DNA of 22,409 nt, taken from a virus. How positions within the stretch are numbered: the first letter of the stretch is position 1; every line of letters starts with the position of its first letter. Shown piece after piece: positions 6,129 to 22,409 of the stretch. The stretch is taken from IMG/VR virus record IMGVR_UViG_3300010885_024105, positions 1-22,409 of that record; one strand, written 5' to 3'. The notes under the pieces are model-generated. The model worked only from the letters and a program-made list of their open reading frames with translations, had not been told where the DNA came from and did not search any database. Position numbers and translations under genes: made by a program.

Positions 6129-8510
6129 TCAGGCCGCAAGTTTCAGTTTGGAAAGTGATGCCAAAGTAGGACCAGCTTCCCCATCTGCCGGGAAGGCAAG
6201 CTGCGGAACCCAATCTAATTCACCAAGCGGGAGGTGCTGCATTACTTGCCCTGCCTGCCCCGCCCAGTAAGCATAATCAGTGGCATCAGCGTATGCAATC
6301 AAAGCATCGTGGATCATCCCAACAACAGCGAATTTTTCTTCCGGTATATTAGCCTCAATCTCAGCAATAGCCCATATCATCATATCCGTCAGCGCGGCTT
6401 GAACAGGACTGTTGATAGCCTGCCGTTCTGCTTTTGAGGCCACCTTGCGATCCCACGAACGTATCGTCTCTAGGTGGCGTATACGGCCCATAGGGGACCG
6501 GACAAACTGATAGGCCCTGACGAATTTGCGCATGGCTTCGTGGTAGTTGATCAAGCCTGGGTAGAGTTCGAAGAATGCGTTGCGCATGGCTTCGGCTTCT
6601 TCGTGGGTAAGCTCCAACCCGTAACTGGCCCAGCAGAAGATTTGGAACCCTTCCACACCCATACCGTAAAGGAGTCCGAAATTGGCCGGTTTAGCCTTGT
6701 CTCGGATCAGACTATATAGGGATGGATCAGAAATCTTGAGGGCGGCAAAGGTGGCGTATGTGTAGCCCCCAAGCTTGGCCCCTGTAACAGCGTGCAAGTC
6801 CAACCCCTGCTCGTAGGCGGCAATCATCATCTTCTCTGGGGCAATGCAGGCAACAACCCGCAACTCGCCCTGACTGTAGTCAAGAACGACAATAACCTTG
6901 CCTGGAGGTGCGGGGAAGCATTCACGGATACGCTTAGCCCACTTCGTCTTTTTAGGCAGCGTCTGGAATGCGGGGTCCTTACATGACAGACGGCCCGACA
7001 CCGTCCCGCTCTCATCTTCCTCGTCGTCGTTGAACCCGCCGTGGAACAGCATGTATGTCGGATGTAGTTTACCATCCGGGCGGATGTGCTTCATAAAGCC
7101 ATCCACGAAAGTGGACTTGGTCTTCGATGCTGACCCCATGCGCTCCATTACTGAAATCATGGACGAGGCTAGGGGGTTATGTGCAAACATCTTCAAATGT
7201 GCACGCGCAGTGCTGGGTTCATTAGTCTTGCCAGTCTTCATCACAGGCTTCAAATTCAAACCTAGAGGCGTGAAGAAGTATTCCTTGATTAAGGCCGGCG
7301 TGAACGGGCTTTTCCCGCGATCCCGTTGGCTGGCAATCTTGTCAAAGTGTTTTAGTCTAAGTCTGCGGGGAATGAGGTCCAAGGCCTCTAACTCACATTC
7401 CTTAATCTCCACGGCCAATTCAGTGCTGAGCACTGCCATTTTCTGCTGGTCTACCAGAACGCCTCTGCGCTCTAGCTTTTCGAAGGCCCGCGCAGCGGGG
7501 TGCACTACCCGGATATAGAACCGGGCTAGTTCGCCGTCCTCTAGCAGTTCGTCCCGCAGAACCTCTGCAACTTGGAATGTTCCGTCCAAGTCTCCCCCGA
7601 AATACGAGGTCATCTTAGTAACAGGTATCTTCTCCATTTCCCCCTTATCATATGTGGAGTTCAGTTCGGTGTCGTAGCCGCCCAGATCGGTCATTGTCTT
7701 CGTGTGCGTGGTCAAGCCGTTCGACCTGTTCTCGTTGAGCAGACTTCCAACAAGCGCCGTGTCAAACTTGAAGTTTGTGCATTCAATGCCCCATTTTTCT
7801 GCGATCCATGTCAGGTCATACTTGCCGTTGGCCAAGCGCAGCGTAATCATGGGGCTAGTTAGCAACCAGCGAATTTGATCCCATATCAGGTCTGGGTCTC
7901 CCGAAGGGACAGGGTCGGGATACTGGTCACTGGTTACCAGCATGTCGGCCCTACCTTTATCGACGGTAAAGCCTATGGTGAGGATGTCCTTGCCTTCGTA
8001 ATACGGATACAGGCCCATGGTCTCCGTGTCCGTTGATACGGGGACCGGGACTCCAGTCTGGGTATACAGAACTTTGATACGAGCTATAATGTCGGAGAAG
8101 TCTGACACCCACCTATAGTCCCCGAGCTTGGGTATCAGGTTGCCCGTGTCCATCAAACGCTTCACAAGACGGACATCGTATTGAATGAGGTCACGCTTGT
8201 CCGGTTCGCTGGCAATGACACCAGGGTCATACGTCATCATGTAAAAGCCACCTGCCGCGAACGGCTTGAAGGCCTTCTCCCGCAAACTTCCCAAGGTGCG
8301 GTTCTTCTGGATTAGGTTACTAGCTTTCAGTATATCTAGCGTCTTGGCCCCGCAACAAACAACAATGTCGTTAGGACCGCCAGTAACTACTTCGCCTTCC
8401 ACGATAGGCCGGAACTCATGTTCGGGGATGTTGGGCTTCATAGCCTTCAACGCTTCCCCGATAGTCTTCGTTATCGAGTCGGTCTTCGCGCTAGTCCAGA
8501 ATATAATGAT
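6129..8510 (-). CDS. Family A DNA polymerase with 3'-5' exonuclease
   Basis: This is a Pol I-like replicative polymerase. Numbered from the ATC at 8508-8510: exonuclease motifs are DTET (D161, E163), NGKYD (N228, D232) and the YFGGDLDG region. Polymerase landmarks are TVSGRLS near 503, motif A DYSQGELR (D544), motif B KPANFGLLYG (607-616) and motif C IHDAL (D735). No 5' nuclease domain is present, as usual for phage enzymes. The first standard start is TTG at 8448-8450, but the frame is open upstream and reads IIIFWTSAKTDSITKTIGEA, a plausible first strand and helix. AAGGAGG ends 8 nt before ATC ATT ATA, with no in-frame ATG, GTG or TTG there. I therefore place the start at the ATC or the adjacent ATT. 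The gene ends in TGA. Confidence 0.93.
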   Translation of the reverse strand: MIIFWTSAKTDSITKTIGEALKAMKPNIPEHEFRPIVEGEVVTGGPNDIVVCCGAKTLDILKASNLIQKNRTLGSLREKAFKPFAAGGFYMMTYDPGVIASEPDKRDLIQYDVRLVKRLMDTGNLIPKLGDYRWVSDFSDIIARIKVLYTQTGVPVPVSTDTETMGLYPYYEGKDILTIGFTVDKGRADMLVTSDQYPDPVPSGDPDLIWDQIRWLLTSPMITLRLANGKYDLTWIAEKWGIECTNFKFDTALVGSLLNENRSNGLTTHTKTMTDLGGYDTELNSTYDKGEMEKIPVTKMTSYFGGDLDGTFQVAEVLRDELLEDGELARFYIRVVHPAARAFEKLERRGVLVDQQKMAVLSTELAVEIKECELEALDLIPRRLRLKHFDKIASQRDRGKSPFTPALIKEYFFTPLGLNLKPVMKTGKTNEPSTARAHLKMFAHNPLASSMISVMERMGSASKTKSTFVDGFMKHIRPDGKLHPTYMLFHGGFNDDEEDESGTVSGRLSCKDPAFQTLPKKTKWAKRIRECFPAPPGKVIVVLDYSQGELRVVACIAPEKMMIAAYEQGLDLHAVTGAKLGGYTYATFAALKISDPSLYSLIRDKAKPANFGLLYGMGVEGFQIFCWASYGLELTHEEAEAMRNAFFELYPGLINYHEAMRKFVRAYQFVRSPMGRIRHLETIRSWDRKVASKAERQAINSPVQAALTDMMIWAIAEIEANIPEEKFAVVGMIHDALIAYADATDYAYWAGQAGQVMQHLPLGELDWVPQLAFPADGEAGPTLASLSKLKLAA

Positions 8511-8525
8511 GGCACGGTCCTCCTT
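8511..8525 (-). promoter_or_regulatory. Ribosome binding site of the polymerase gene
   Basis: AAGGAGG (8519-8525) followed by an 8-nt spacer (8511-8518) points to ATC at 8508-8510. A GTG in the spacer is out of frame and its frame closes after 14 codons. Spacing of 5-8 nt is typical of other genes in this window, so the site decides the noncanonical start. Confidence 0.6.
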
Positions 8526-8534
8526 GTCCGGATA

Positions 8535-8954
8535 CTACTTTAGCACAGACCAAGCCCCGGAGCCTAGACGTAAAAACGTGGCCACTTCAGCGGGCTTCAC
8601 CAAGGCCCGGTGGTGTGCTGCCCCCTTCTGGTCGCCCGCTGCCTCCAACAGGCCCAACCCCCGCTGGGGAAGCATAGGTAGGTTAAGTATGGCTGCGTAG
8701 ACGTTGTGTGCCTCCTCCCGCCCAGTCAAAGGCATTGTCATAAATAGGCCGACATCGTGCATAGTCTCCACAATCATGGATACGTGGTCAGGACCGATGC
8801 GTGACGATAGCACGGCACACTTGACCTTCAGCTTACTGTTGCCGAACTTGACGGTCTGGTCGCTGTTCCCGGTGAGTCTTTGCCCGTCGCGGGTGAGGTC
8901 CATGCCTACAACGTCTGCTAGCATATACATGTCGGTGTATAGTGGTTCTATCAT
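8535..8954 (-). CDS. Hypothetical protein upstream of DNA polymerase
   Basis: I do not recognise this 139-residue product. It is soluble, with no membrane segment, and ends in a TAG in the same reading frame as the polymerase gene that follows, so readthrough would fuse the two. The ATG at 8952-8954 lies just past the TGA of the previous gene and is preferred to a TTG at 8988-8990, which would overlap that gene by 34 nt; the Shine-Dalgarno is weak for both. Proximity suggests a replication-associated role, but nothing in the sequence proves it. Confidence 0.75.
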   Translation of the reverse strand: MIEPLYTDMYMLADVVGMDLTRDGQRLTGNSDQTVKFGNSKLKVKCAVLSSRIGPDHVSMIVETMHDVGLFMTMPLTGREEAHNVYAAILNLPMLPQRGLGLLEAAGDQKGAAHHRALVKPAEVATFLRLGSGAWSVLK

Positions 8955-10235: not shown

Positions 10236-10241
10236 TGTCAA
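10236..10241 (-). promoter_or_regulatory. Possible promoter -35 box next to a palindrome
   Basis: The minus strand reads TTGACA, a perfect sigma-70 -35 hexamer, three bases downstream of the palindrome at 10244-10257 and pointing to the gene starting at 10177. The best -10 at 17-bp spacing is only GACGAT (three of six matches), so the promoter is uncertain. Confidence 0.25.
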
Positions 10242-10930
10242 TTTGCAGTTAGCTGCAAACCCTTCGGGGCATTCCACACCGACCGTAGATCAAACTGGTG
10301 ACGTGCCGTGGTTTTGTCGGGGAACGGTGACGTAACCTTGCTTGCTGGTTTCTTGGCTTGGTTATGGAAAACAGTGTCGGGTGCTTGCATTACATGAGAA
10401 TGCTCTTTGTGCCCGGTGATCTTCTTCACGCCGTAGAATTTATGCAGCCAGTTAACCTGCTCTGCGCTCTCCACGGCCTTATGGCAGTAATGCTCACGGA
10501 CATACGTTGTGGCATCTTTCTCCCCCGTCATCTGGCACACCAGGGCCGCGAAGAACATACCTGTGCGACCGTGCCCTCCGATGCACCCACAATGAACCTT
10601 CAAACCGGCTTTCAACGAGTCAGCCACGAACAGCAAGGCTTCATCGAAGTCGGCCTTGTTACGCGGGACGCCCATGTCGGGTATTTCGATGAAAAGGTCT
10701 TGCCCCGGAACCCAAGGCAAAGACTTCCGTGAAAGACGCATACCCGAGTCGAACCCTACGTATACGTGCGCGTCTGTCACTTTTGGATGGATGCACGACC
10801 CTCCATGGATAAAATGGTCCCCCACTAGCATGGGTTTGTGCGTTTCGTAGCATTTGTGTGAAGGCTGTCTTTTAGACCCCCAATGTTCTTCGTCTTGTGG
10901 CTCCAATTCCCACCAGTTCTGCTTTGCCAT
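10238..10930 (-). CDS. Cysteine-dependent (dual-specificity-like) phosphatase 1
   Basis: This 230-residue protein carries the protein tyrosine/dual-specificity phosphatase signature. The P-loop CIGGHGRTG (C116-x5-R122) is preceded by VHCG (H113, C114), and a general-acid loop IPDMGVP has D85, the usual ~30 residues upstream. It should hydrolyse phosphate monoesters on Tyr/Ser/Thr, or on RNA 5' ends or other small substrates as some family members do. Two Cys near the P-loop allow redox control. The C-terminal ~60 residues are a basic extension ending in the palindrome-encoded LQLTAN. The start is ATG at 10928-10930 with AAGGAG 7 nt upstream. A paralogue lies at 12100-12624. Confidence 0.85.
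   Translation of the reverse strand: MAKQNWWELEPQDEEHWGSKRQPSHKCYETHKPMLVGDHFIHGGSCIHPKVTDAHVYVGFDSGMRLSRKSLPWVPGQDLFIEIPDMGVPRNKADFDEALLFVADSLKAGLKVHCGCIGGHGRTGMFFAALVCQMTGEKDATTYVREHYCHKAVESAEQVNWLHKFYGVKKITGHKEHSHVMQAPDTVFHNQAKKPASKVTSPFPDKTTARHQFDLRSVWNAPKGLQLTAN
10244..10257 (+). repeat. Dispersed palindrome at the phosphatase 1 C-terminus
   Basis: TGCAGTTAGCTGCA matches TGCARTTARNTGCA exactly. It covers the codons just before the phosphatase 1 stop and lies upstream of a TTGACA box for the next gene. Confidence 0.85.
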
Positions 10931-12072: not shown

Positions 12073-12103
12073 ACTATACTAACTGGATGCCGGGGTGGGT
12101 CAA
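12073..12103 (-). promoter_or_regulatory. Possible sigma-70 promoter
   Basis: The minus strand has TTGACC (12098-12103), then TAGTAT at 16-bp spacing or TATAGT (12073-12078) at 19-bp spacing, in the 57-base gap upstream of the gene starting at 12042. Matches are good but the spacing is imperfect. Nothing else is visible in this gap. Confidence 0.3.
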
Positions 12104-12624
12104 ATAGGTATTGTGACACTCAATCCCATGAGCTTGCGAATGCCATACAACATAAACGCACGCCGCACGGGCCTAATATCGTAACGGTCAATGAAAGCTT
12201 CTTGCTGATTGGTCTCAACCGCGTGACCCAAGTAAGCTGCACGCACATGCAATATTGGGAACGCAATTCCGTGTATCTTCGCCACTAGAGACAGGAACAA
12301 TCCTGTGCGGCCAATTCCCCCGGCGCACCCCACATACACCGGGCGACCTTCTGAAGCTTCGATGTATACCCTCAGTAAGGCAGCGTTCAGGCGATTAATG
12401 TCTGCTGGGACCGAGAAATCAGCGATTGGCATACTAAATGTGCCCGGCTGCTGGGTAAAACTGTTGGGGACCTCCAACAGGCAGAACCCCATCATGTCGA
12501 GGTCTGTCATGTATCGGTTCCGGTAAGGACCCCCATGCATAATCACCTGCGGGAGAAACGCTAAAGGTCGCTTGTTCAAAACAAGAACGCCATTAGCTCC
12601 GGGAAGTTTTTTTATCTGCTGCAT
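12100..12624 (-). CDS. Cysteine-dependent phosphatase 2
   Basis: This second phosphatase-fold protein (174 residues) has the P-loop CAGGIGRTG (C100-x5-R106) and an upstream acid loop IADFSVP (D69), so the catalytic Cys, Arg and Asp are all present. The residue before the Cys is Gly (YVGC) rather than the usual His, which may change the Cys pKa or substrate range. The C-terminal half is helical (FIDRYDIRPVRRAFMLYGIRK without any membrane segment). I place the start at ATG 12622-12624, 5 nt after AAGGAGG. A TTG at 12643-12645 is in frame but lies upstream of that ribosome binding site. It is a paralogue of phosphatase 1, with little similarity outside the catalytic loops. Confidence 0.83.
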   Translation of the reverse strand: MQQIKKLPGANGVLVLNKRPLAFLPQVIMHGGPYRNRYMTDLDMMGFCLLEVPNSFTQQPGTFSMPIADFSVPADINRLNAALLRVYIEASEGRPVYVGCAGGIGRTGLFLSLVAKIHGIAFPILHVRAAYLGHAVETNQQEAFIDRYDIRPVRRAFMLYGIRKLMGLSVTIPI

Positions 12625-12647
12625 CATGCCCTCCTTGGCATTCAAGG

Positions 12648-13234: not shown

Positions 13235-15418
13235 TTATGCTGCTTTGGCATTGGACAACGCCATATACACAGCATACTCCACAGGGGCACCCATTGGAAC
13301 CGTCTTGACCGCGTAGCCGGCACTATTTAGAGCCGCCTTAATTACTGCCCAAGCATGCGATCCCCCGATTACATCTGTAATGAACTCGTTAGACACCTCA
13401 CAGGCACGGTTCAACGTGTCGGCCAGGGTCTTAGCCTTCTCCGTTACTATGTAACCGTTCGTCTCCAAATTGACCACAGTATGGGGCATTAAAGGCCCCC
13501 CGCACACGGTTGGTCCTGTCCCCAATGCCTGCCCGTCAACTATCATAAATTGGTAGCCTTTCATGTTGAACCATTCTGGGTCAACGTATGGGGCTTCCCC
13601 GACACATGCAAGCAATTGGTGATCCTGCCCGATAACCTTGGGAGGCGTGACATCCATATAGGTGAAAGCGGCTGCTTTGGTTTCTGCAACTCGCTCCAGT
13701 ATTTCTTGTAGCTTTGCAGGTTGCCCCCAATACGCGGACAGTGGAATATTCCTTGGCCCTTTACCTATTTCGGACAGGTCTGAAGTGGTTTCCACAAAAC
13801 CAAGCGTGTTCATACAAATCCCCTTGAACCATGCCAAATCTGGGTCAGATGTAGCATCCTGCACGGGGACTTCTGTGTCGATCCATACCCGGCCAGTGGC
13901 TCCACAAAGCGCCACCTTCTTACCCTCCAAGTAAGACAATTCGATGGGGAGGCCTCGGCAGCCTACAATACAGGGCTTGTCCATAGCCCTAGCTACCACG
14001 GCTGCGTGACTGGTCGATCCACCTGTCCGGGTTAGGATGCCTTGTGCCTTGAACATTCCCGCGATGTCGTCGGGGTTGGTCTCGTTGGTAACCAAGATGC
14101 AAGGCTCTTTGCAATTAACTGCAGCGTCCGCTGTCAGGACAACCACCCCAATGGCTACGCCGGGGGAGGCCCCATTGCCTTCCAAGTGCGGGGGCTGTTT
14201 GAAGTTAGCTGCAATCGTCGGGCGTCGCAGAACCTTGTATTGCGCAACGGTCACACGTTTGAGGACTTCGCTTTCAGTAATGGTACCGTGTTCGCAGAAA
14301 TGCTTCGCAATCTTCACGGCTGCCAGGGCCGAGCGCTTCCCAATGCGGCACTGCAGCAACCATAGCTTCTTGTCTTGGACTGTGAACTCAATGTCCATCA
14401 TATCCGAGTAATGACCCTCCAGGGTGGTGGTGAGTGTCATCAGTTCGTGATGCACAACCCCCCAACCCAAATCGTCCAGTTCCGGGGGCCTGTGGGGCTT
14501 GCACATGGCCTTGATCTTCAAGGGCGTGCGGATACCCGCCACCACATCTTCACCCTGCGCATTGGGCAGAAACTCCCCCAACGCCACATCTTCCCCCGTG
14601 GACGGGTCCTTGCTGAAAAGGACTCCAGTCCCGCTACTCATGCCAGTGTTACCGAACACCATACACTGAACAGTTACAGCGGTGCCCATAGCGGCTGGGA
14701 TATTATGAATACGACGATACTCAATGGCTCGCGGGTTCATCCAACTATCAAAAACAGCCATCACTGCCGAACTCAATTGTTCTTCCACAGTCTGGGGGAA
14801 ATACTGGTTCGTGTGCACCTTGAATATGCCGCCAAAGATTGTTACCAACTCGACCAATGCGTCGGCGTTCAGGTCCGCGTCGTGGATCACCTTCTTCTGG
14901 AATTTGAGCTTTGTCAAAGCCGCTTCAAATTCGTCCGAAGGCACCCCATATGCTGTGTGGCCAAGCATCTGTATCAGTCGGCGTTGGCTGTCTCGTGCTG
15001 CGCGCAGGCTAAGCCTATCCGCCCAATCGTTGACGGTGTCATGTGTAAGTCCCACGTTCAAGATGGTGTCCATCATCCCCGGCATGGAAACTGGCGCCCC
15101 CGACCGAACCGACACGAGAGGGGCATACCCCATCAAGTCTGTGAGTGCATCATACATTTCCATTACTTCTAGCATCAAGTCGGCAATGAAATTTTGAACT
15201 TCGGGGGTGTGAACCGTATACTCTTGCACGAGTAGGGCTTCGTATGCTTTACACACATCCGTTGTAATTGTGAAGCCTGGGGGCACCGGGATGCCGAGAT
15301 TGGCCATCTCTGCCAAATTGGCTCCCTTACCCCCCAGCAACATAGCCATGCTTGCATCCCCATCAGCAACTTTCCCGCTGACATTGGGCATTCCGAAAGT
15401 GTAAATTCGTTTGGCCAC
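13235..15418 (-). CDS. PPDK-like ATP-grasp/phosphohistidine protein lacking the PEP barrel
   Basis: The 727-residue product is clearly related to pyruvate phosphate dikinase. The ATP-grasp domain is at ~20-380, with GGKGANLAEM (29-38), SVRSGAPVSMPGMMDTILN (R104), FPQTVEEQL, a long NPRAIEYRRIHNIPAAMGTAV block, NAQGEDVVAGIRTP and LLQCRIGKR. The swivelling phosphohistidine domain at ~400-520 has TGGSTSHAAVVAR with H470. Bacterial PPDK continues into a ~350-residue TIM barrel that binds PEP/pyruvate. Here that is replaced by ~190 residues I cannot identify, so the acceptor is unknown. The first half-reaction (ATP and Pi to phosphohistidine) looks intact; PEP synthesis does not. The start is GTG at 15416-15418 with AAGGAGG 5 nt upstream. 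Two palindromes lie inside. Confidence 0.9.
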   Translation of the reverse strand: MAKRIYTFGMPNVSGKVADGDASMAMLLGGKGANLAEMANLGIPVPPGFTITTDVCKAYEALLVQEYTVHTPEVQNFIADLMLEVMEMYDALTDLMGYAPLVSVRSGAPVSMPGMMDTILNVGLTHDTVNDWADRLSLRAARDSQRRLIQMLGHTAYGVPSDEFEAALTKLKFQKKVIHDADLNADALVELVTIFGGIFKVHTNQYFPQTVEEQLSSAVMAVFDSWMNPRAIEYRRIHNIPAAMGTAVTVQCMVFGNTGMSSGTGVLFSKDPSTGEDVALGEFLPNAQGEDVVAGIRTPLKIKAMCKPHRPPELDDLGWGVVHHELMTLTTTLEGHYSDMMDIEFTVQDKKLWLLQCRIGKRSALAAVKIAKHFCEHGTITESEVLKRVTVAQYKVLRRPTIAANFKQPPHLEGNGASPGVAIGVVVLTADAAVNCKEPCILVTNETNPDDIAGMFKAQGILTRTGGSTSHAAVVARAMDKPCIVGCRGLPIELSYLEGKKVALCGATGRVWIDTEVPVQDATSDPDLAWFKGICMNTLGFVETTSDLSEIGKGPRNIPLSAYWGQPAKLQEILERVAETKAAAFTYMDVTPPKVIGQDHQLLACVGEAPYVDPEWFNMKGYQFMIVDGQALGTGPTVCGGPLMPHTVVNLETNGYIVTEKAKTLADTLNRACEVSNEFITDVIGGSHAWAVIKAALNSAGYAVKTVPMGAPVEYAVYMALSNAKAA
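14110..14123 (+). repeat. Dispersed palindrome inside the PPDK-like gene, copy 1
   Basis: TGCAATTAACTGCA matches TGCARTTARNTGCA exactly. The gene reads it in a different codon phase (AVNC) from the copies that encode L-Q/H-L-T/I-A, showing the conservation is at DNA level. Confidence 0.85.
14200..14213 (+). repeat. Dispersed palindrome inside the PPDK-like gene, copy 2
   Basis: TGAAGTTAGCTGCA has one mismatch to the consensus. It is 90 bp from copy 1 in the same orientation, the closest pair in the window. Confidence 0.65.
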
Positions 15419-15453
15419 GTGGCCCTCCTTGGCCTGTTGTGGTTTTGGTATGC

Positions 15454-15963
15454 CTAATACTGCTGGTTTACCGGAGTTTGAGCAAGTGTTTTTGTGTAAT
15501 ACCCGCTAAGCCGTGCACGTATGAGCATACTGTCCGCAGCCGCTTGCAACTGCGCTGTATGCCCAGGCAAATCAGAACCCATGTCCTTGCTGTCATCAAT
15601 CAGAAGCGTGGATATAAGCACGGCTTGATTGGTTACGTCGGGGAACAGGCCCTCGGACACGAGCCGCAGAGTGAACAAGGCGCAGGCCATGATACCGGTG
15701 CGAGGATCGGAGAACGATTGGTCCCGTAGAAGGGCAGCGGCGGTGTTGTCAATCTCCGTGGCCAGTCTCCTGGCCGTCAGGGTGTCAAAGCCCGCCAGAG
15801 CGGCTGCAGCAGCCCTGGACAGGTGCATAAACACGTCCTGGCGCAGCACCCACCCTTTGTTCCTGATGTCGTCTGCCATACACCACAGCAAATGTGCCGG
15901 CAGACCTGCTTCAATGGCAACGTGCTGCTTTGCACGCTCTAACAATTCCACAATACTTAGCAT
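15454..15963 (-). CDS. Hypothetical helical protein, ~169 aa
   Basis: Not recognised. The sequence looks almost entirely helical (AAAAALAGFDTLTARRLATE) with no signal peptide or membrane segment. GTG at 15964-15966 and ATG at 15961-15963 are adjacent in-frame starts overlapping the TAG of the preceding gene; GAGGA is 6 and 9 nt upstream, so both work. It ends in TAG. If that TAG were read as sense, the frame would run about 280 nt out of frame into the PPDK-like gene, so TAG must normally be a stop in this phage. Confidence 0.75.
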   Translation of the reverse strand: MLSIVELLERAKQHVAIEAGLPAHLLWCMADDIRNKGWVLRQDVFMHLSRAAAAALAGFDTLTARRLATEIDNTAAALLRDQSFSDPRTGIMACALFTLRLVSEGLFPDVTNQAVLISTLLIDDSKDMGSDLPGHTAQLQAAADSMLIRARLSGYYTKTLAQTPVNQQY

Positions 15964-15965
15964 CA

Positions 15966-16151
15966 CTATTCTTCCTCGTGTTCGGTTATAAAGGCACCCA
16001 GGTCGCGGGCTTCATCCAATAGCTCGGGGTCCTGTGCAGTTAAGTGCACATAGTCTAACCCAATACATTCGACATAGCACCGTGCCAAATCTGCTTTTTC
16101 CAAGAACAGTGCCTTGTTACCGTCCGAGAAAAACTCTAAGCGGGTTATCAT
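15966..16151 (-). CDS. Small acidic hypothetical protein, 61 aa
   Basis: Not recognised. The C-terminus is strongly acidic (ITEHEEE). It overlaps its neighbours on both sides, sharing one base with the TAA of the terminase frame and ending at a TAG followed immediately by an in-frame TGA, so it looks translationally coupled. A palindrome copy (16035-16048) encodes VHLTA inside it. Small size and acidity are reminiscent of phage host-takeover proteins, but this is only a suggestion. Confidence 0.65.
   Translation of the reverse strand: MITRLEFFSDGNKALFLEKADLARCYVECIGLDYVHLTAQDPELLDEARDLGAFITEHEEE
16035..16048 (+). repeat. Dispersed palindrome in the small acidic gene
   Basis: TGCAGTTAAGTGCA matches TGCARTTARNTGCA exactly and is identical over all 14 bases to the intergenic copy at 4184-4197. 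Confidence 0.85.
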
Positions 16152-17230
16152 TATGCTCTCAATCCTGGGTGCGTGGGTTGGCGGTTTTCAGTCTGGTTCA
16201 AACTACCTCTGCTCTTGTCTTCCGCTTTAAGCAACCCTCGGGGTATGCTGGTGATTGGGATGCCGTGCTGTCTCCACACGTCACGCCGCATTGTCAACCC
16301 GTAGCATACCCCAGCCATTGCGTCTGACACGTCCTTCGATCCACGTGCGGGATGGTCGATCTTCTTCGTCTTAGGATCACGCTCTAATCGCACAATCTCC
16401 CCCTGGGCCTTGGCGTGTTCGGGGGCGACTATTCTGCGATCATACAGGGCTTGCTTCGTCACGTCATACGCTAGAGTGTCTGTGTCCATCGACAGCAACC
16501 CCGTTATGAACCCTCGCTGCCTCAGCATCTGGATAGTGTCCGTGGATTGGAAGCTGTCGAAAGTGGCCCATTTAATGGGAAGCCCTAAATCGCGTAAACG
16601 ATACATAAGTCTCCTTACGTGATCAAACTCTATCTCCCCTCCTCTGGGCGGGCGTATTTCCAACAGACAGTCATACTGGATAATCGGCATTATTTCGACC
16701 TCATGGCCTCGCCTAATTGTCTTGAACCCCGGCACGTGCCCGATAGCAAAACCGAAGCTGTCCCCCGTCAAACCCATATCCCCGTGCATGAAGCGAGGGA
16801 ACTGTAGGTTGGTGAAGCGTTTCGGGTATATCTGGATGATTTGGTCCTTGAAGTCACAAGACTCACTGCTCAACACAGACTTTACGATACCGAATGAGTC
16901 AACGACTGCCTGTGTGTCCATAATGAATGGGTGCAAGGCCAAAGTGCTCACGCCAGCAATGTCCCGTAGCGCGGCAAGTATGTCTGTGTCAAAGCTGTCG
17001 CGGTATTCCACGGGCACGGACAAGCGGTATGTCTCGTCTGCGGGGGTCAGGACTTCTCCTTCCAACAAGACGCGGGGCCGGCGCGTGGCGTCCCCGGTAA
17101 ACACGTCGAACCTAGGTCCTGAGAAGCGTCCAGGCCTTATGTCCCACAAGCGTTTATCGTAGATGTATATGCGGGGGTTGGTCTTCGCCTCCTTCTCCTT
17201 CTGGTCAGTGAATTGGCCGGGGTAATTACG
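16151..17230 (-). CDS. terL: Terminase large subunit, nuclease half (after in-frame TAG)
   Basis: This is the C-terminal half of the packaging motor, in the same reading frame as the ATPase half and separated only by the TAG at 17231-17233. The 27 codons after the TAG read RNYPGQFTDQKEKEAKTNPR and onward, continuing family-like sequence, so this is not a new gene start. The RNase H-like headful nuclease motifs are visible: HGDMGLTGDS (acidic motif I), WATFDSFQ (motif II) and KDVSDAMAG (motif III), at about 447, 522 and 597-600 of the joined chain. The first possible start downstream of the TAG is TTG at 17147-17149, without a convincing ribosome binding site. It ends in TAA overlapping the next ATG. 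Confidence 0.9.
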   Translation of the reverse strand, partial: RNYPGQFTDQKEKEAKTNPRIYIYDKRLWDIRPGRFSGPRFDVFTGDATRRPRVLLEGEVLTPADETYRLSVPVEYRDSFDTDILAALRDIAGVSTLALHPFIMDTQAVVDSFGIVKSVLSSESCDFKDQIIQIYPKRFTNLQFPRFMHGDMGLTGDSFGFAIGHVPGFKTIRRGHEVEIMPIIQYDCLLEIRPPRGGEIEFDHVRRLMYRLRDLGLPIKWATFDSFQSTDTIQMLRQRGFITGLLSMDTDTLAYDVTKQALYDRRIVAPEHAKAQGEIVRLERDPKTKKIDHPARGSKDVSDAMAGVCYGLTMRRDVWRQHGIPITSIPRGLLKAEDKSRGSLNQTENRQPTHPGLRA

Positions 17231-17233
17231 CTA
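17231..17233 (-). other. In-frame amber codon interrupting terminase
   Basis: A TAG lies at codon 297 of the joined terminase frame (from ATG 18119-18121), in LPGMLCLVS-TAG-RNYPGQF. Family members usually have a Ser pair at this place, near the ATPase coupling motif III, so TCG to TAG by one substitution is the simplest origin. The frame is open on both sides, with protein-like sequence throughout. Confidence 0.95.
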
Positions 17234-18121
17234 AGACACCAGACATAGCATGCCAGGAAGCAGCCCCTTAGCGTTCATAAACCGGCTCTGGCGACGACGG
17301 GCAATAGTGTTGTAATTCTGCATGGCTTGGTCGTAGACCCCGCCGTCCGTGGACATTTTGGACTTCTCAACAACGGCCATGAAGTTCACTTCGTCCATAA
17401 TGCCACCGATGACGTTCTGACCGATGGCAGCTTGGTCGTGCCCGGCCACCGGCTTGATGATTATCCGGCGCGGGAAAATCATTAGGCTTTCGAGTTCTTT
17501 GTTGAACGGGAACGTGCTCCTGAAATACGGGGCGTGCTCCAGCATGTCTCGGAAGCGGCTGTAATCAACGTCCTTGGCTAGGTTCTTCGAAATCGACTGG
17601 AATACTATCAGTATCTCCGAACTTGGATCGAGGTCGAACACGGCGTGTGCGTTCCGCAGACAGCTTAGCAAGTAAGTCTGGTATGCTTGCGTATAGAGTG
17701 CCAGCGTGGTTTTGGCCACGCCGATGCCTCCCGTCAAAACACACTCCACACGCGTCCCGTCGTTGATCGCTTGCAATTCCTGCATCACCGGGGGCCATAG
17801 CACGCCTTTCTTATTCATTAGGAGAGGGTGTTCTACAAACGTTCTAGGGTCTACAGGCAGGTGGAAGTATCTCCCCGGCCCGTGCGAAGCCATAGTCTTC
17901 AAGTGCCCTATGGCATAATGCAGATACTCTAGGCGATCCTGCTGCGCCTGCCTTTCGGATATGCCCTGCTCAGACGCGTCAGCGGCTATCTGCTTGCCTA
18001 CGGTCCATACCCATTCACCACTGCACCCCATGCCCTGCAGGATAGCCATAGCCGCCTCTAGCGGGTGTAGCGTCTTGGGGGTTTCTACCTGTAGTATCTT
18101 AGGCTTCTTGGACATGGACAT
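17231..18121 (-). CDS. terL: Terminase large subunit, ATPase half (ends at in-frame TAG)
   Basis: This is the N-terminal ATPase that drives DNA into the prohead. Walker A is GGIGVAKTT (131-139) and Walker B is IGGIMDEVNF with D243 and E244. The N-terminal ~110 residues form the usual helical lead-in. Translation would stop after LPGMLCLVS, before coupling motif III is complete, leaving an ATPase without a nuclease. The start is ATG at 18119-18121, or the second ATG at 18113-18115, which is 7 nt after GGGG. Both overlap the small subunit gene by about 20 nt. A TTG-type start at 18196 would overlap far more and is not favoured. Confidence 0.92.
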   Translation of the reverse strand: MSMSKKPKILQVETPKTLHPLEAAMAILQGMGCSGEWVWTVGKQIAADASEQGISERQAQQDRLEYLHYAIGHLKTMASHGPGRYFHLPVDPRTFVEHPLLMNKKGVLWPPVMQELQAINDGTRVECVLTGGIGVAKTTLALYTQAYQTYLLSCLRNAHAVFDLDPSSEILIVFQSISKNLAKDVDYSRFRDMLEHAPYFRSTFPFNKELESLMIFPRRIIIKPVAGHDQAAIGQNVIGGIMDEVNFMAVVEKSKMSTDGGVYDQAMQNYNTIARRRQSRFMNAKGLLPGMLCLVS

Positions 18122-18683
18122 ACCCCGCGTCGGCCCCAATAGACTTGAACAAGTCTTCCTGTTCCTGGGTCCATTCGAACATAGACACTTTGCCATCGTT
18201 GTCTGTTAGTTGCCCCGTTATCTTCTTCGGAGCGCGGTGCAGCACACCCGTCTCCAGTTGTAGACGGCCTAGCTCTACCAACATTTCTTTCAGCAACCTG
18301 CCCTCGTCAGATACATTCTTGAGAAGCAGCGGCATAGTCTGCTCCTTCACCAGCATCTTCTTGAAGCGTGTCGTCTGTATGTCAACCAGTTCTTGCAGCG
18401 AGTCCATAGCCGAGGCTCGTTTCTGCAAAGTGCTGGTTCGCATACCTTGGGAGGCCCCCGCAATATCCGCGACTACACGATCCCGTAGTTCAGTCCCGCG
18501 ATACCGCTCCAGAGTCTTCTTGACGCTGTCGGGCCTTAACTGTTTCAAGTCCCCCCATTCGTTGTGGATAATAGCGGCAATCTGGCTTGCGGGCATGCCC
18601 TTCTTGAGCATGTCATCAATACGACCCACCTTTTCTTCGCCCAGGGCCTTCAGAGACGCGAAAGCCACCTTACTCCCGGCCAT
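18099..18683 (-). CDS. terS: Terminase small subunit
   Basis: The 194-residue protein precedes the ATPase gene, as small terminase subunits do. An N-terminal helix-turn-helix-like segment (GMPASQIAAIIHNEWGDLKQ, about 29-48, then RPDSVKKTLERYR) would recognise packaging sites. A central helical, coiled-coil region (MDSLQELVDIQTTRFKKMLV) suits ring oligomerisation. The C-terminal tail (MFEWTQEQEDLFKSIG) may contact the large subunit. The start is ATG at 18681-18683, forming an ATGA overlap with the ParB-like gene, with GGGGAG 8 nt upstream. Assignment rests on architecture and position. Confidence 0.8.
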   Translation of the reverse strand: MAGSKVAFASLKALGEEKVGRIDDMLKKGMPASQIAAIIHNEWGDLKQLRPDSVKKTLERYRGTELRDRVVADIAGASQGMRTSTLQKRASAMDSLQELVDIQTTRFKKMLVKEQTMPLLLKNVSDEGRLLKEMLVELGRLQLETGVLHRAPKKITGQLTDNDGKVSMFEWTQEQEDLFKSIGADAGYVHVQEA

Positions 18684-19540
18684 CAGCCTAGCTCCCCAAT
18701 AGAAGCTATATTCTGCTTAGTTGGTATCAGTTGCATGTTGGCGGGCAAAACAACCTTAGGGGCCTTGGCTATAATGGCCATGACCTGATCCTTGAGGTCA
18801 CCTTTTGCAATTAGCTGCAAAACCCCTCCGATGACATCGTCCACCGTAACGTCCTTGTCTTGGCATAGTGCCCCTATGACATCGAAAGTCTTGATGGTTT
18901 TCTCACTAACCTGCAACCATACGCTGCGCTGGCCCCCGTGATCAAACACCATAAATGCCCAAGGCAGCGTATCCCCGTATTTCGTGAACAACTCGTTTAG
19001 GATGCGGGCCAGACCGTCGATAGTCTTTACTTCCTTGGCCGCTTCCTTGAAGCGAGTCTTCATGGCGGGGTCTTCTATGGTTGAAGCAGTCTGCTCAACC
19101 ATTTTACGGAATTCCGCTTCTTCTGCAAAGCCGAAGGCGTCTTGTAAAACTGCGTCGGAATACTTGCTGGATAGCGAGTCATACATAGCAAAGAAGGCGG
19201 CGGGGTCCATCTTGCCTCGGATCATATTCATCCTGACAACCTGGAATGTTTCGGCTTCTTCGTCGAAGTCTGGGTCAGTAATGACAGTGCAAGGCACGCC
19301 TTCAAAACCCAAATACATGGCAGCGTCGAACCTATGATGCCCCCCGACAATCTTAAATGTTTTGGTCTTCGGTATTGGCCGAACCAGTATAGGGTCCGTT
19401 ATTCCGGTCTTCTGGATGTTATCTACCAGAAGATCGAAATCGCGGGGTTTCATCTTGTTGGGGTTCTTATCATTCTTCACAAGCAACCCAACAGGGATGT
19501 CTTTTCTTATAAGCGATTTGGTCTTGTCCACGGCGTCCAT
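18683..19540 (-). CDS. ParB-like N-terminal domain protein
   Basis: The 285-residue protein has a ParB/Srx-type N-terminal domain: DIPVGLLVKNDKNPNK (14-29), ILVRPI (51-56) and GGHHRFDAA (66-74), the position of the GxxRxxA nucleotide-binding box. Family members bind CTP or DNA, or act as nucleases. The helical remainder has no recognised DNA-binding helix. The start is ATG at 19538-19540, 5 nt after AAGGAG; longer starts at 19732 would overlap the methyltransferase gene. The gene precedes the terminase pair, a common place for ParB-like genes in phages. The palindrome at 18806-18819 encodes LQLIA near its C-terminus. Confidence 0.82.
   Translation of the reverse strand: MDAVDKTKSLIRKDIPVGLLVKNDKNPNKMKPRDFDLLVDNIQKTGITDPILVRPIPKTKTFKIVGGHHRFDAAMYLGFEGVPCTVITDPDFDEEAETFQVVRMNMIRGKMDPAAFFAMYDSLSSKYSDAVLQDAFGFAEEAEFRKMVEQTASTIEDPAMKTRFKEAAKEVKTIDGLARILNELFTKYGDTLPWAFMVFDHGGQRSVWLQVSEKTIKTFDVIGALCQDKDVTVDDVIGGVLQLIAKGDLKDQVMAIIAKAPKVVLPANMQLIPTKQNIASIGELG
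18806..18819 (+). repeat. Dispersed palindrome in the ParB-like gene
   Basis: TGCAATTAGCTGCA matches TGCARTTARNTGCA exactly, flanked by TTT and AAA so that it extends as a near-palindrome to about 20 bp. Confidence 0.85.
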
Positions 19541-19578
19541 AACGGCTCCTTGCGTCCCTGCGAATGTCTCTACGCACT

Positions 19579-20262
19579 CTATACAGGTTTTGTGCCGTAT
19601 GCCAACAGGCTGAGTTGCGAAGCCCATCTGAAAAACTGCACCCCGGTAGTCTTGGACAGCCACAGACTGAATTCTACAGGGGTGAACCACCGCCACAAAG
19701 TGGCCACCCCGCGTAGCCAAGGTCGAGTCCACATAGCTGGATACTGGTAAACGCGCTCACAAGTGACATTCTCTAAACCCGATGCCTTCAACAGGTCCGA
19801 GAGAGACACGACATCATAAGGCCGGATGTGCGTGTAATCATCATAGAAGGTTTTCATATAGGTGCGCCAGTCGGGGCACATGACTATGATCACAGCCCCA
19901 GGGCGCATTAACATTAGGGTCTGCTCCATCATATGCTCGGGGTCGCGGATATGCTCTATAACGTTCTTGTGAAACACGACATCAAACTGGTGTCTGTCCT
20001 TCAACCAACAGCCCCACTCGTCCTCACTTAGGTCAGCCTTCGTGTCCGTGAGTTCAGTCCCGCTGCGGTCAACAGTGTGCGTCTCCATCCCCACATCGCG
20101 CCACGCTTTCGTGAAATCCCCGGTGCCCGGACCAAGTTCCAGCAAGGTTCTAGGCCCCCGAAGACTGAACTTCTCCTCCAAGAAGTCAATCAGCCTTCCT
20201 GGGAATTCGTTATGCTTCCGTTTTGCGGCGTCCCCGTATTGCAGCTCAAGATACTTCGACAT
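19579..20262 (-). CDS. SAM-dependent methyltransferase (class I)
   Basis: The 227-residue protein has Rossmann methyltransferase motif I LLELGPGTGDF (40-50), an acidic residue at the end of strand 2 (HTVDRSG, D65), a FDVVFHKNVIEHI motif and the HIRPYDVVSLSDLLKASGL segment typical of UbiE/methyltransferase-11-like enzymes. The C-terminal ~55 residues are rich in Trp/Phe/Leu (PWLRGVATLWRWFTPVEFSL) and may bind membrane or a lipid-linked substrate, as in bacterial glycan methyltransferases. It follows a glycosyltransferase-like gene, so a glycan substrate is plausible; a DNA target is less likely because no DNA-methylase catalytic motif is seen. The ATG at 20260-20262 overlaps the region of the upstream stop. 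Ends TAG. Confidence 0.85.
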   Translation of the reverse strand: MSKYLELQYGDAAKRKHNEFPGRLIDFLEEKFSLRGPRTLLELGPGTGDFTKAWRDVGMETHTVDRSGTELTDTKADLSEDEWGCWLKDRHQFDVVFHKNVIEHIRDPEHMMEQTLMLMRPGAVIIVMCPDWRTYMKTFYDDYTHIRPYDVVSLSDLLKASGLENVTCERVYQYPAMWTRPWLRGVATLWRWFTPVEFSLWLSKTTGVQFFRWASQLSLLAYGTKPV

Positions 20263-20263
20263 C

Positions 20264-21772
20264 CTATTTTACCTTCTTCAAGTGTCCGACTGCAGAACTA
20301 GCGTCTGTAAAGCCTAGGAAAGCTTTGAACATGACTCGGAACTCGTTCCAAGGGGTAGCAAACGTGATCCTGCGGCGGTTTCTATCCCCGTCCTTGGTCT
20401 TCTCCTGCAGGAAGTCGAACAGCCCGGCCTTCCCGAGGTCCCGGATGAAATCAAACATCACGAGTTCGTCCAGCTTTGCCGCTTCCGCTGCCAGGACCGG
20501 GAACATGCCTTCCCCTGTGGTGCGACCCGCCATCATCTTTCGTAGGCCGTCCCCGTGCAGGAATGTCTCATGGTCTGCGAGGAATTTGTGAATTATCGGG
20601 TAATACGTCGTGGAGAACTCGCCGTCTTCGAACTTCGGATTGAAGACCTCCACCATATATTTCCAGAATTTGGCATACATGTTGTCGTAGTCATCACGGA
20701 ATGCTTTGGCCACCGCGTAAGCCTCTACCTCGTTTGACACGAGGAATGGGTATTTAGGCCCCCAAATAGACCGGGTCCACGCCTGATCTATGATGATTGC
20801 CGGAACACCCAGCAACATGGGTTCAATCATAGACAGCCCCATTTCTGCGTGGTTGAATAGAATCAGCATTACGTCCATTTCTTCCCTCGCTATACGCCAG
20901 AATTCCTCCCGCACAGGCCGGCGCAATTCGACGAAGTCCGGGGGCGGTTCAGGGGCTGCCTTACTCACGGTGCATATCAGCAGCTTTATGCCTTGCTCAC
21001 CGCCCATGATGAACTGGTTGGTCATTACTGCGTATATCGCGTCCAAGTTGGACGACACTTTCTCCATGCGCCCGGTGAAGCTCAAGCACATTTTCCTTTC
21101 ACCCTTCTTGAACATGAACTCCGGTGCCTTCCGCTTGGGCTTGTCCAGAGTGGCGGCAACCGAATTGATGATACGGCTGCTCATGTCGATAACAGTGGAC
21201 GGCGACAGATACTTGCGGGCGGTCTTGATCATATCATGCTTGTCTTGCAGAGACGGCACAATGGTGAGGTCCGAGCATAAATAGCCTGTGATGGTCTGTA
21301 GTTCTTGCCCTATAACGTCACTCTTTGCCACCGTGGGCTTCGTGTCGATGATTAGCATTTCCTCCAGGCATACAATCTTTTTCAGCCTGCGCCCGATGGA
21401 CTTCTGGCGCGGACTGGAAATAACGGCGCGCATGTTTGCAATCTGCGATGTCCGCACCGTAATGATGGCGTCAAAGTCCCAGAAGTCTCCGTTGAAGCCA
21501 AAGATCATGTCCATTTGGTCATTGAACCGCATGTATTCGCGCATGCGATCCTCGTGCACGGGGAACTCAATGTATTTGATCTGTGGGTGTCTGGGCATCC
21601 ACGCAAGCTCGTCCTCGGTCATGTTAGAGAACGGCGGGATAACCCAATAGAAGAACCAGTCAGTCTTGCCTTCGGCCAAACTGTATTCGATGATGGAGCG
21701 ATACTTGAACGCTGTCGAACAGCGTGACATGTGACCCGAGTAGATGGGGTCTAGCAAAATCTTCAAAGACAT
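20264..21772 (-). CDS. GT-B glycosyltransferase-like protein
   Basis: This 502-residue protein has a two-lobed GT-B outline: an N-terminal lobe starting MSLKILLDPIYSGH, and a C-terminal lobe with KMCLSFTGRMEKVSSNLDAI (228-247) and NHAEMGLSMIEPMLLGVPAI (307-326), resembling the nucleotide-sugar loop of GT4-type enzymes, though the first Glu of the usual ExxxxxxxE pair is shifted. A ~100-residue C-terminal extension is unassigned. Possible roles are glycosylating modified DNA bases, capsid or host surface glycans. The start is ATG at 21770-21772 with AAGGA 7 nt upstream. The TAG is one base before the methyltransferase ATG. Confidence 0.75.
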   Translation of the reverse strand: MSLKILLDPIYSGHMSRCSTAFKYRSIIEYSLAEGKTDWFFYWVIPPFSNMTEDELAWMPRHPQIKYIEFPVHEDRMREYMRFNDQMDMIFGFNGDFWDFDAIITVRTSQIANMRAVISSPRQKSIGRRLKKIVCLEEMLIIDTKPTVAKSDVIGQELQTITGYLCSDLTIVPSLQDKHDMIKTARKYLSPSTVIDMSSRIINSVAATLDKPKRKAPEFMFKKGERKMCLSFTGRMEKVSSNLDAIYAVMTNQFIMGGEQGIKLLICTVSKAAPEPPPDFVELRRPVREEFWRIAREEMDVMLILFNHAEMGLSMIEPMLLGVPAIIIDQAWTRSIWGPKYPFLVSNEVEAYAVAKAFRDDYDNMYAKFWKYMVEVFNPKFEDGEFSTTYYPIIHKFLADHETFLHGDGLRKMMAGRTTGEGMFPVLAAEAAKLDELVMFDFIRDLGKAGLFDFLQEKTKDGDRNRRRITFATPWNEFRVMFKAFLGFTDASSAVGHLKKVK

Positions 21773-21787
21773 GGGGTGTTCCTTAGG

Positions 21788-22409
21788 TTAAGTTCTGAGG
21801 CCTTGCCAATCATACAAGCTTCCGTCGGCTGACTCCCATACCCCACAATTGCGGATGTATTCAAGAGGATCGTCGCTGTTTGCAATTAACTGCAAAACGC
21901 TGAACGGGTTAATTGCCTTCTTTAGTATCTGAAATCGGGTCTCGGTGGCTGCTTGTATGGTGTTGAACCCTAGGTAAGACCGCCCCGCCGATCCCTGTAG
22001 ATACAATGCCCCTTGACCTCCAGTGTGTCGGGATATTGTGTCGTTCAGCTTTTCAACCTTCCCGAGGTGCCCTCGGTCTCGGATGTCCAATCTGAAACTA
22101 GCGGTGTTAGCAACACCAAGCACACCAGCCACGCTTAACAATGTGTCTTGACAAACTTTAATCAGCCTGTCTCCCGGTTTGGCATACTTCAAAGGCAGTA
22201 GCGCCCGTATAACCTTCTCTGGATATTTTACTTGGTCCCACACCAAGGTGCGCTGTATTTTTGCAATCAGTTCAGCCCCTGAGAACTTCTCGGCCAAGTG
22301 TATGTCCCGGATCAGCTTGTTGCGCGAATGCGCCTCCACCGGACAGGTGCACCACACGCCATTGATTTTTGTGCGATGCATGTAACCGCTTTGGTCAAAC
22401 TTTACCCCA
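21788..22409 (-). CDS. Unknown protein, open to the right edge
   Basis: The frame has a first ATG at 22379-22381 but stays open to the window edge and that ATG has no clear Shine-Dalgarno, so the true start is probably outside. The visible ~200 residues are not recognised. There is a small Cys pair (WCTCPVEAHSRNK), a basic/helical middle (KVIRALLPLKYAKPGDRLIK) and a Gly-rich stretch (RHTGGQGALYLQGSAGRS). The palindrome at 21881-21894 encodes LQLIA. It lies upstream of the glycosyltransferase gene with a 15-base gap and ends in TAA. Confidence 0.7.
   Translation of the reverse strand, partial: GVKFDQSGYMHRTKINGVWCTCPVEAHSRNKLIRDIHLAEKFSGAELIAKIQRTLVWDQVKYPEKVIRALLPLKYAKPGDRLIKVCQDTLLSVAGVLGVANTASFRLDIRDRGHLGKVEKLNDTISRHTGGQGALYLQGSAGRSYLGFNTIQAATETRFQILKKAINPFSVLQLIANSDDPLEYIRNCGVWESADGSLYDWQGLRT
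21881..21894 (+). repeat. Dispersed palindrome near the right edge
   Basis: TGCAATTAACTGCA matches TGCARTTARNTGCA exactly, and is identical to the copy at 14110-14123; TGTT and AAAA flanks extend the symmetry. Confidence 0.85.

Follow-up and report, generated by a model that had tools for sequence, protein, structure and literature searches.

An ATC codon at the homologous start position of a phage family-A DNA polymerase gene

The window analysed here is the whole stretch of 22,409 bases of the virus record IMGVR_UViG_3300010885_024105, and its main genes lie on the minus strand. Its DNA polymerase gene raises the question of where translation starts. The polymerase frame is open from the TAG at 8537-8535 to its stop and possesses no ATG, GTG or TTG before the TTG at 8450-8448. 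At the homologous start position an ATN codon stands in place of ATG, GTG or TTG, and the minus strand reads TAG(8537-8535) TAT CCG GAC AAG GAG GAC CGT GCC ATC(8510-8508) ATT ATA TTC TGG. A first-pass annotation had described this frame as open from the TAG at 8535 to the first TTG at 8448, with an AAGGAGG 8 nt before the ATC; the coordinates were found to be right and the motif was located at 8525-8519. The features of the locus, together with one in the terminase gene, are as follows.

6129..8510, minus strand: family-A DNA polymerase gene, 793 codons from ATC, then TGA
6129..8510, minus strand: polymerase domain layout, with a UDG-like N-terminal domain, 3'-5' exonuclease and polymerase
8508..8510, minus strand: ATC codon where the homologous starts fall, opposite GTG1 of RcZahn and TTG1 of L026
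8441..8450, minus strand: first in-frame conventional candidates, TTG 8450 and ATG 8441, residues 21 and 24
8519..8525, minus strand: Shine-Dalgarno sequence AAGGAGG, 8-nt spacer to ATC 8510-8508
8513..8515, minus strand: out-of-frame GTG, 3 nt after the Shine-Dalgarno sequence, opening a 14-codon frame that ends in TAA
8535..8960, minus strand: upstream gene, ending in TAG 8537-8535; its homologues, too, end a few residues past the same conserved W
17231..17233, minus strand: in-frame TAG in the terminase large subunit; Ser in relatives (TCC, TCC, TCG)

The polymerase belongs to family A, as DNA_pol_A (PF00476, 3.1e-59) and 3'-5' exonuclease (DNA_pol_A_exo1, PF01612, 7e-11) domains are both present in Pfam matches, and a fold search with the whole model gave the Klenow fold with a Z of 31.4. 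The main minus-strand genes are colinear with gp1 to gp20 of Rhodobacter phage RcZahn. The shared gene order is ParB-like, small protein, terminase, pyruvate phosphate dikinase (PPDK), tyrosine phosphatases, polymerase, portal, protease and capsid. A nucleotide search of phage records gave no match to the whole window. RcZahn gp15 (MW677529) and the polymerases of Rhizobium phages RHph_TM16 and RHph_Y1_11 are orthologous family-A polymerases set in the same neighbourhood (terminase, PPDK, tyrosine phosphatase, polymerase, portal, capsid).

The start position was fixed by these and other relatives. Residues 1-798 of RcZahn gp15, annotated with a GTG start, align to 8510-6132 at 54% identity with no offset and the same last residue. 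RcZahn thus has GTG at the ATC position of the window, while the Rhizobium-type phages, RHph_TM16 and RHph_Y1_11 among them, have ATG 9-10 codons upstream of it. The closest relative found, L026, is 62% identical and shows TTG at the homologous start (TTG ATC CGC TTC TGG, against ATC ATT ATA TTC TGG in the window). Most other relatives have ATG at the ATC codon or 1-3 codons before it, and L036, L074 and L056 start two codons further upstream. In a tally made by hand, in which two of the 46 relatives are nearly identical to each other, all 46 that were read have a conventional start (ATG, GTG or TTG) at the ATC position or a few codons upstream, about 39 of them ATG and 7 GTG or TTG. A near-cognate start was found in none of the 46. 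This comparison of start codons, proposed in the first-pass annotation, thereby upheld the location of the start and spoke against the near-cognate codon. Judged from the alignments, the polymerase start is securely placed, and its ATC codon is not conserved. Where the annotation had offered either ATC or ATT as the start, the aligned starts and the spacing favour ATC, since ATT lies 11 nt from the Shine-Dalgarno sequence and one codon past the point where the homologues begin.

Other window genes with a recognisable Shine-Dalgarno sequence have spacers of about 4-9 nt, and that of the polymerase sits at a functional distance from ATC. AAGGAGG occurs five times on the minus (coding) strand and not at all on the plus strand. 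As four of the five copies stand directly before gene starts, the copy before the polymerase is not due to chance.

The N-terminal region was analysed by AlphaFold2 on an alignment of 22 sequences, with the model starting at ATC 8510. Mean pLDDT was 87 over the full-length protein and reached 94 when the N-terminal 137 residues were modelled by themselves. A strand at residues 2-6 (the IIIFW segment) and a helix at 10-22 were predicted with pLDDT above about 90. As Klenow matches filled the whole-model search, the N-terminal domain was modelled and searched separately. The isolated domain matched family 4 uracil-DNA glycosylases (4zbx, Z 10.2, rmsd 2.8, 120 residues, from residue 1) and also a domain of the phiLo family-A polymerase (9qhs, Z 8.9). 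The first residues from ATC onward are predicted to be strand 1 of a UDG-like domain. The phiLo enzyme likewise appears to carry a UDG-fold domain in a family-A polymerase, the likeness being structural only. None of the PHROG families matched the polymerase N-terminal domain (8100-8510, minus strand). Exact alignment to the starts of relatives, the Shine-Dalgarno spacing and the predicted structure make a translation start at 8510 well supported. The analysis thus shows the site, its Shine-Dalgarno sequence, its homology to the starts of relatives and a structural requirement for the N-terminal residues.

How such a codon could serve is suggested by known near-cognate starts. In bacteria, AUN codons do function as starts, though weakly. 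The infC gene of E. coli has a natural AUU start, and a 2017 study by Hecht reportedly dealt with initiation from all 64 codons. In S. aureus, starts at AUU and AUA that follow extended Shine-Dalgarno sequences reach roughly 10% of AUG (PMC13009471). IF3 favours strong third-position pairs and selects against weak or mismatched ones, for example AUC with a non-cognate anticodon (PMC10158994). The window shares with infC (AUU/AUA), S. aureus cvfC1 (AUU) and ccpN (AUA) an AUN start at a normal distance from a long Shine-Dalgarno sequence (PMC13009471). Those genes, however, keep the codon in different species and it is linked to low expression, whereas the relatives of the window all use ATG, GTG or TTG. 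A literature search on AUC/ATC starts in phages found nothing relevant. By analogy, AUC could plausibly serve as the start of a phage gene that has a full AAGGAGG, with a lower yield.

We propose, with roughly even confidence, that the polymerase is translated from ATC 8510-8508 by ordinary Shine-Dalgarno-directed initiation. The 30S subunit would bind AAGGAGG and AUC would be placed in the P site 8 nt downstream. The initiator tRNA, with its CAU anticodon, would read AUC as formyl-methionine through a third-position mismatch, and the product would begin M-I-I-F-W-T.... A normal polymerase would be expected at a reduced yield, for which the strong Shine-Dalgarno sequence would partly compensate. 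We infer that the virus truly carries ATC and that initiation there is sufficient, although at reduced yield. On sequence grounds the ATC start would belong to a known kind, as a case seen once and not conserved. A rather improbable reading is that the polymerase is naturally throttled by AUC, its synthesis depending on the stringency of host IF3 where close relatives use AUG, GUG or UUG. The controlled near-cognate start suggested in the first-pass annotation was not supported by the conventional starts of the relatives, and neither a structured leader nor a regulator was found; RNA structure at the polymerase start was no more stable than that of shuffles (z +0.71) and an Rfam scan gave no match.

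If ATC is real, it represents the natural use of AUC to start an essential phage gene. AUC lies outside the ATG/GTG/TTG set that was the default for ORF calling here, so that such a start is easily misannotated by 20 or more residues, which in this case would cost a folded domain its first strand and helix. If it is an error, it illustrates how a gene model can be truncated by one wrong base in a metagenome contig. We put the odds of a real, functional ATC at about even against all other explanations together, of which a one-base error is the main rival.

A one-base sequencing or assembly error, already raised as an option in the earlier annotation, is appreciably less probable than a true ATC start but deserves serious weight. 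The virus would then have a conventional codon at 8510-8508 and the site would be ordinary. One substitution is enough, every relative read has its conventional start codon at the position or a few codons upstream, and the ATC base is covered by one contig only. No second record of the start base was found in viral_contigs, where a degenerate DNA pattern over the start gave two unrelated contigs. The upstream gene as query also found no relatives there, so no second copy of the start region was available to check the base. In addition, a second one-base oddity is present in an essential gene of the same contig, the terminase, which makes an error or a defective genome likelier. This terminase TAG, pointed out before, is indeed present and occurs also in L089/L092. 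The record L092 (IMGVR_UViG_3300009161_002429), of 8,483 bases, is identical to window 13927-22409 with no mismatch, so the consensus is reproducible over 13927-22409. It looks independent, but its end coincides to the base with that of the window, so that it is not fully independent; the two may have common reads or a common assembly break. The terminase TAG is either real in the virus or shared through common reads, and its repetition speaks against random errors, provided that the two records do not come from common reads. Apart from this TAG, the 22 kb are without frame breaks, and no indels were seen. Substitutions at otherwise invariant polymerase columns numbered 12 in the window, 13 in L026 and 13 in RcZahn, a frequency no different from that in relatives at equal distance, though the test is weak.

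It is unlikely that ATC is a true lesion in a decaying or helper-dependent virus, comparable to the terminase amber codon and leaving little polymerase made. Two essential genes are affected, and the terminase TAG, which stands in place of a conserved serine, is found again in the second record. Yet all other genes are intact and their Shine-Dalgarno sites are preserved.

The out-of-frame GTG at 8515-8513, absent from the first-pass annotation, would serve as the start only if the record lacked one base; the protein would then begin M-P-x-I-I-F-W or similar. The starts two codons further upstream in L036, L074 and L056 agree with such a position, and non-ATG starts are known in the polymerase family and in the window. 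Its 3-nt spacer is short for the window, the starts of the closest relatives coincide with the ATC position, and an indel would be required in a contig with no other sign of one, which makes this explanation very improbable. A programmed frameshift from GTG 8515 was also considered and set aside for its poor spacing and because the closest relatives start at the ATC position. Slightly more improbable still is a downstream start at TTG 8450 or ATG 8441. These are the first conventional codons in frame, but strand 1 and helix 1 of the confidently predicted domain would be deleted along with a conserved segment, and the Shine-Dalgarno sequence at 8525 would be orphaned.

Readthrough of the upstream TAG, with the polymerase fused to the upstream protein and the terminase TAG read through too, is hardly credible: the frame is shared and both oddities involve TAG, but the homologues of the upstream gene stop at the same place, TAG ends several other window genes, a tRNA scan of the window found none, and a Shine-Dalgarno sequence is present in the gap between the genes. 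That the upstream gene and the polymerase share a frame separated by a TAG had been remarked earlier and is correct as a fact; it carries little weight, as the upstream gene of several relatives is likewise in the polymerase frame. TAG 8537-8535 is taken as the true end of the upstream gene because its homologues end a few residues past the same tryptophan. TAG as a sense codon of an alternative code was rejected, since TAG ends the portal and several other window genes and the terminase holds the single in-frame case. The stop site of the homologues and the use of TAG to end several other genes disfavour a readthrough fusion and a changed code alike.

A few further observations were made in the window. 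An AAGGAGG at 17188-17194 (minus strand) falls within the terminase gene, about 37 nt past the TAG, and no conventional start codon stands at usable distance from it; it is probably a coincidence of coding sequence, formed by Lys-Glu codons. Between terminase and polymerase, 13235-15418 (minus strand) encodes a pyruvate phosphate dikinase-like protein with PPDK_N and PEP-utilizers domains, and this gene is also present in RcZahn and RHph_TM16. The genes at 10238-10930 and 12100-12645 (minus strand) are homologues of RcZahn gp11 and gp9, annotated as tyrosine phosphatases, and they flank phrog_20946, a conserved gene with no assigned function.
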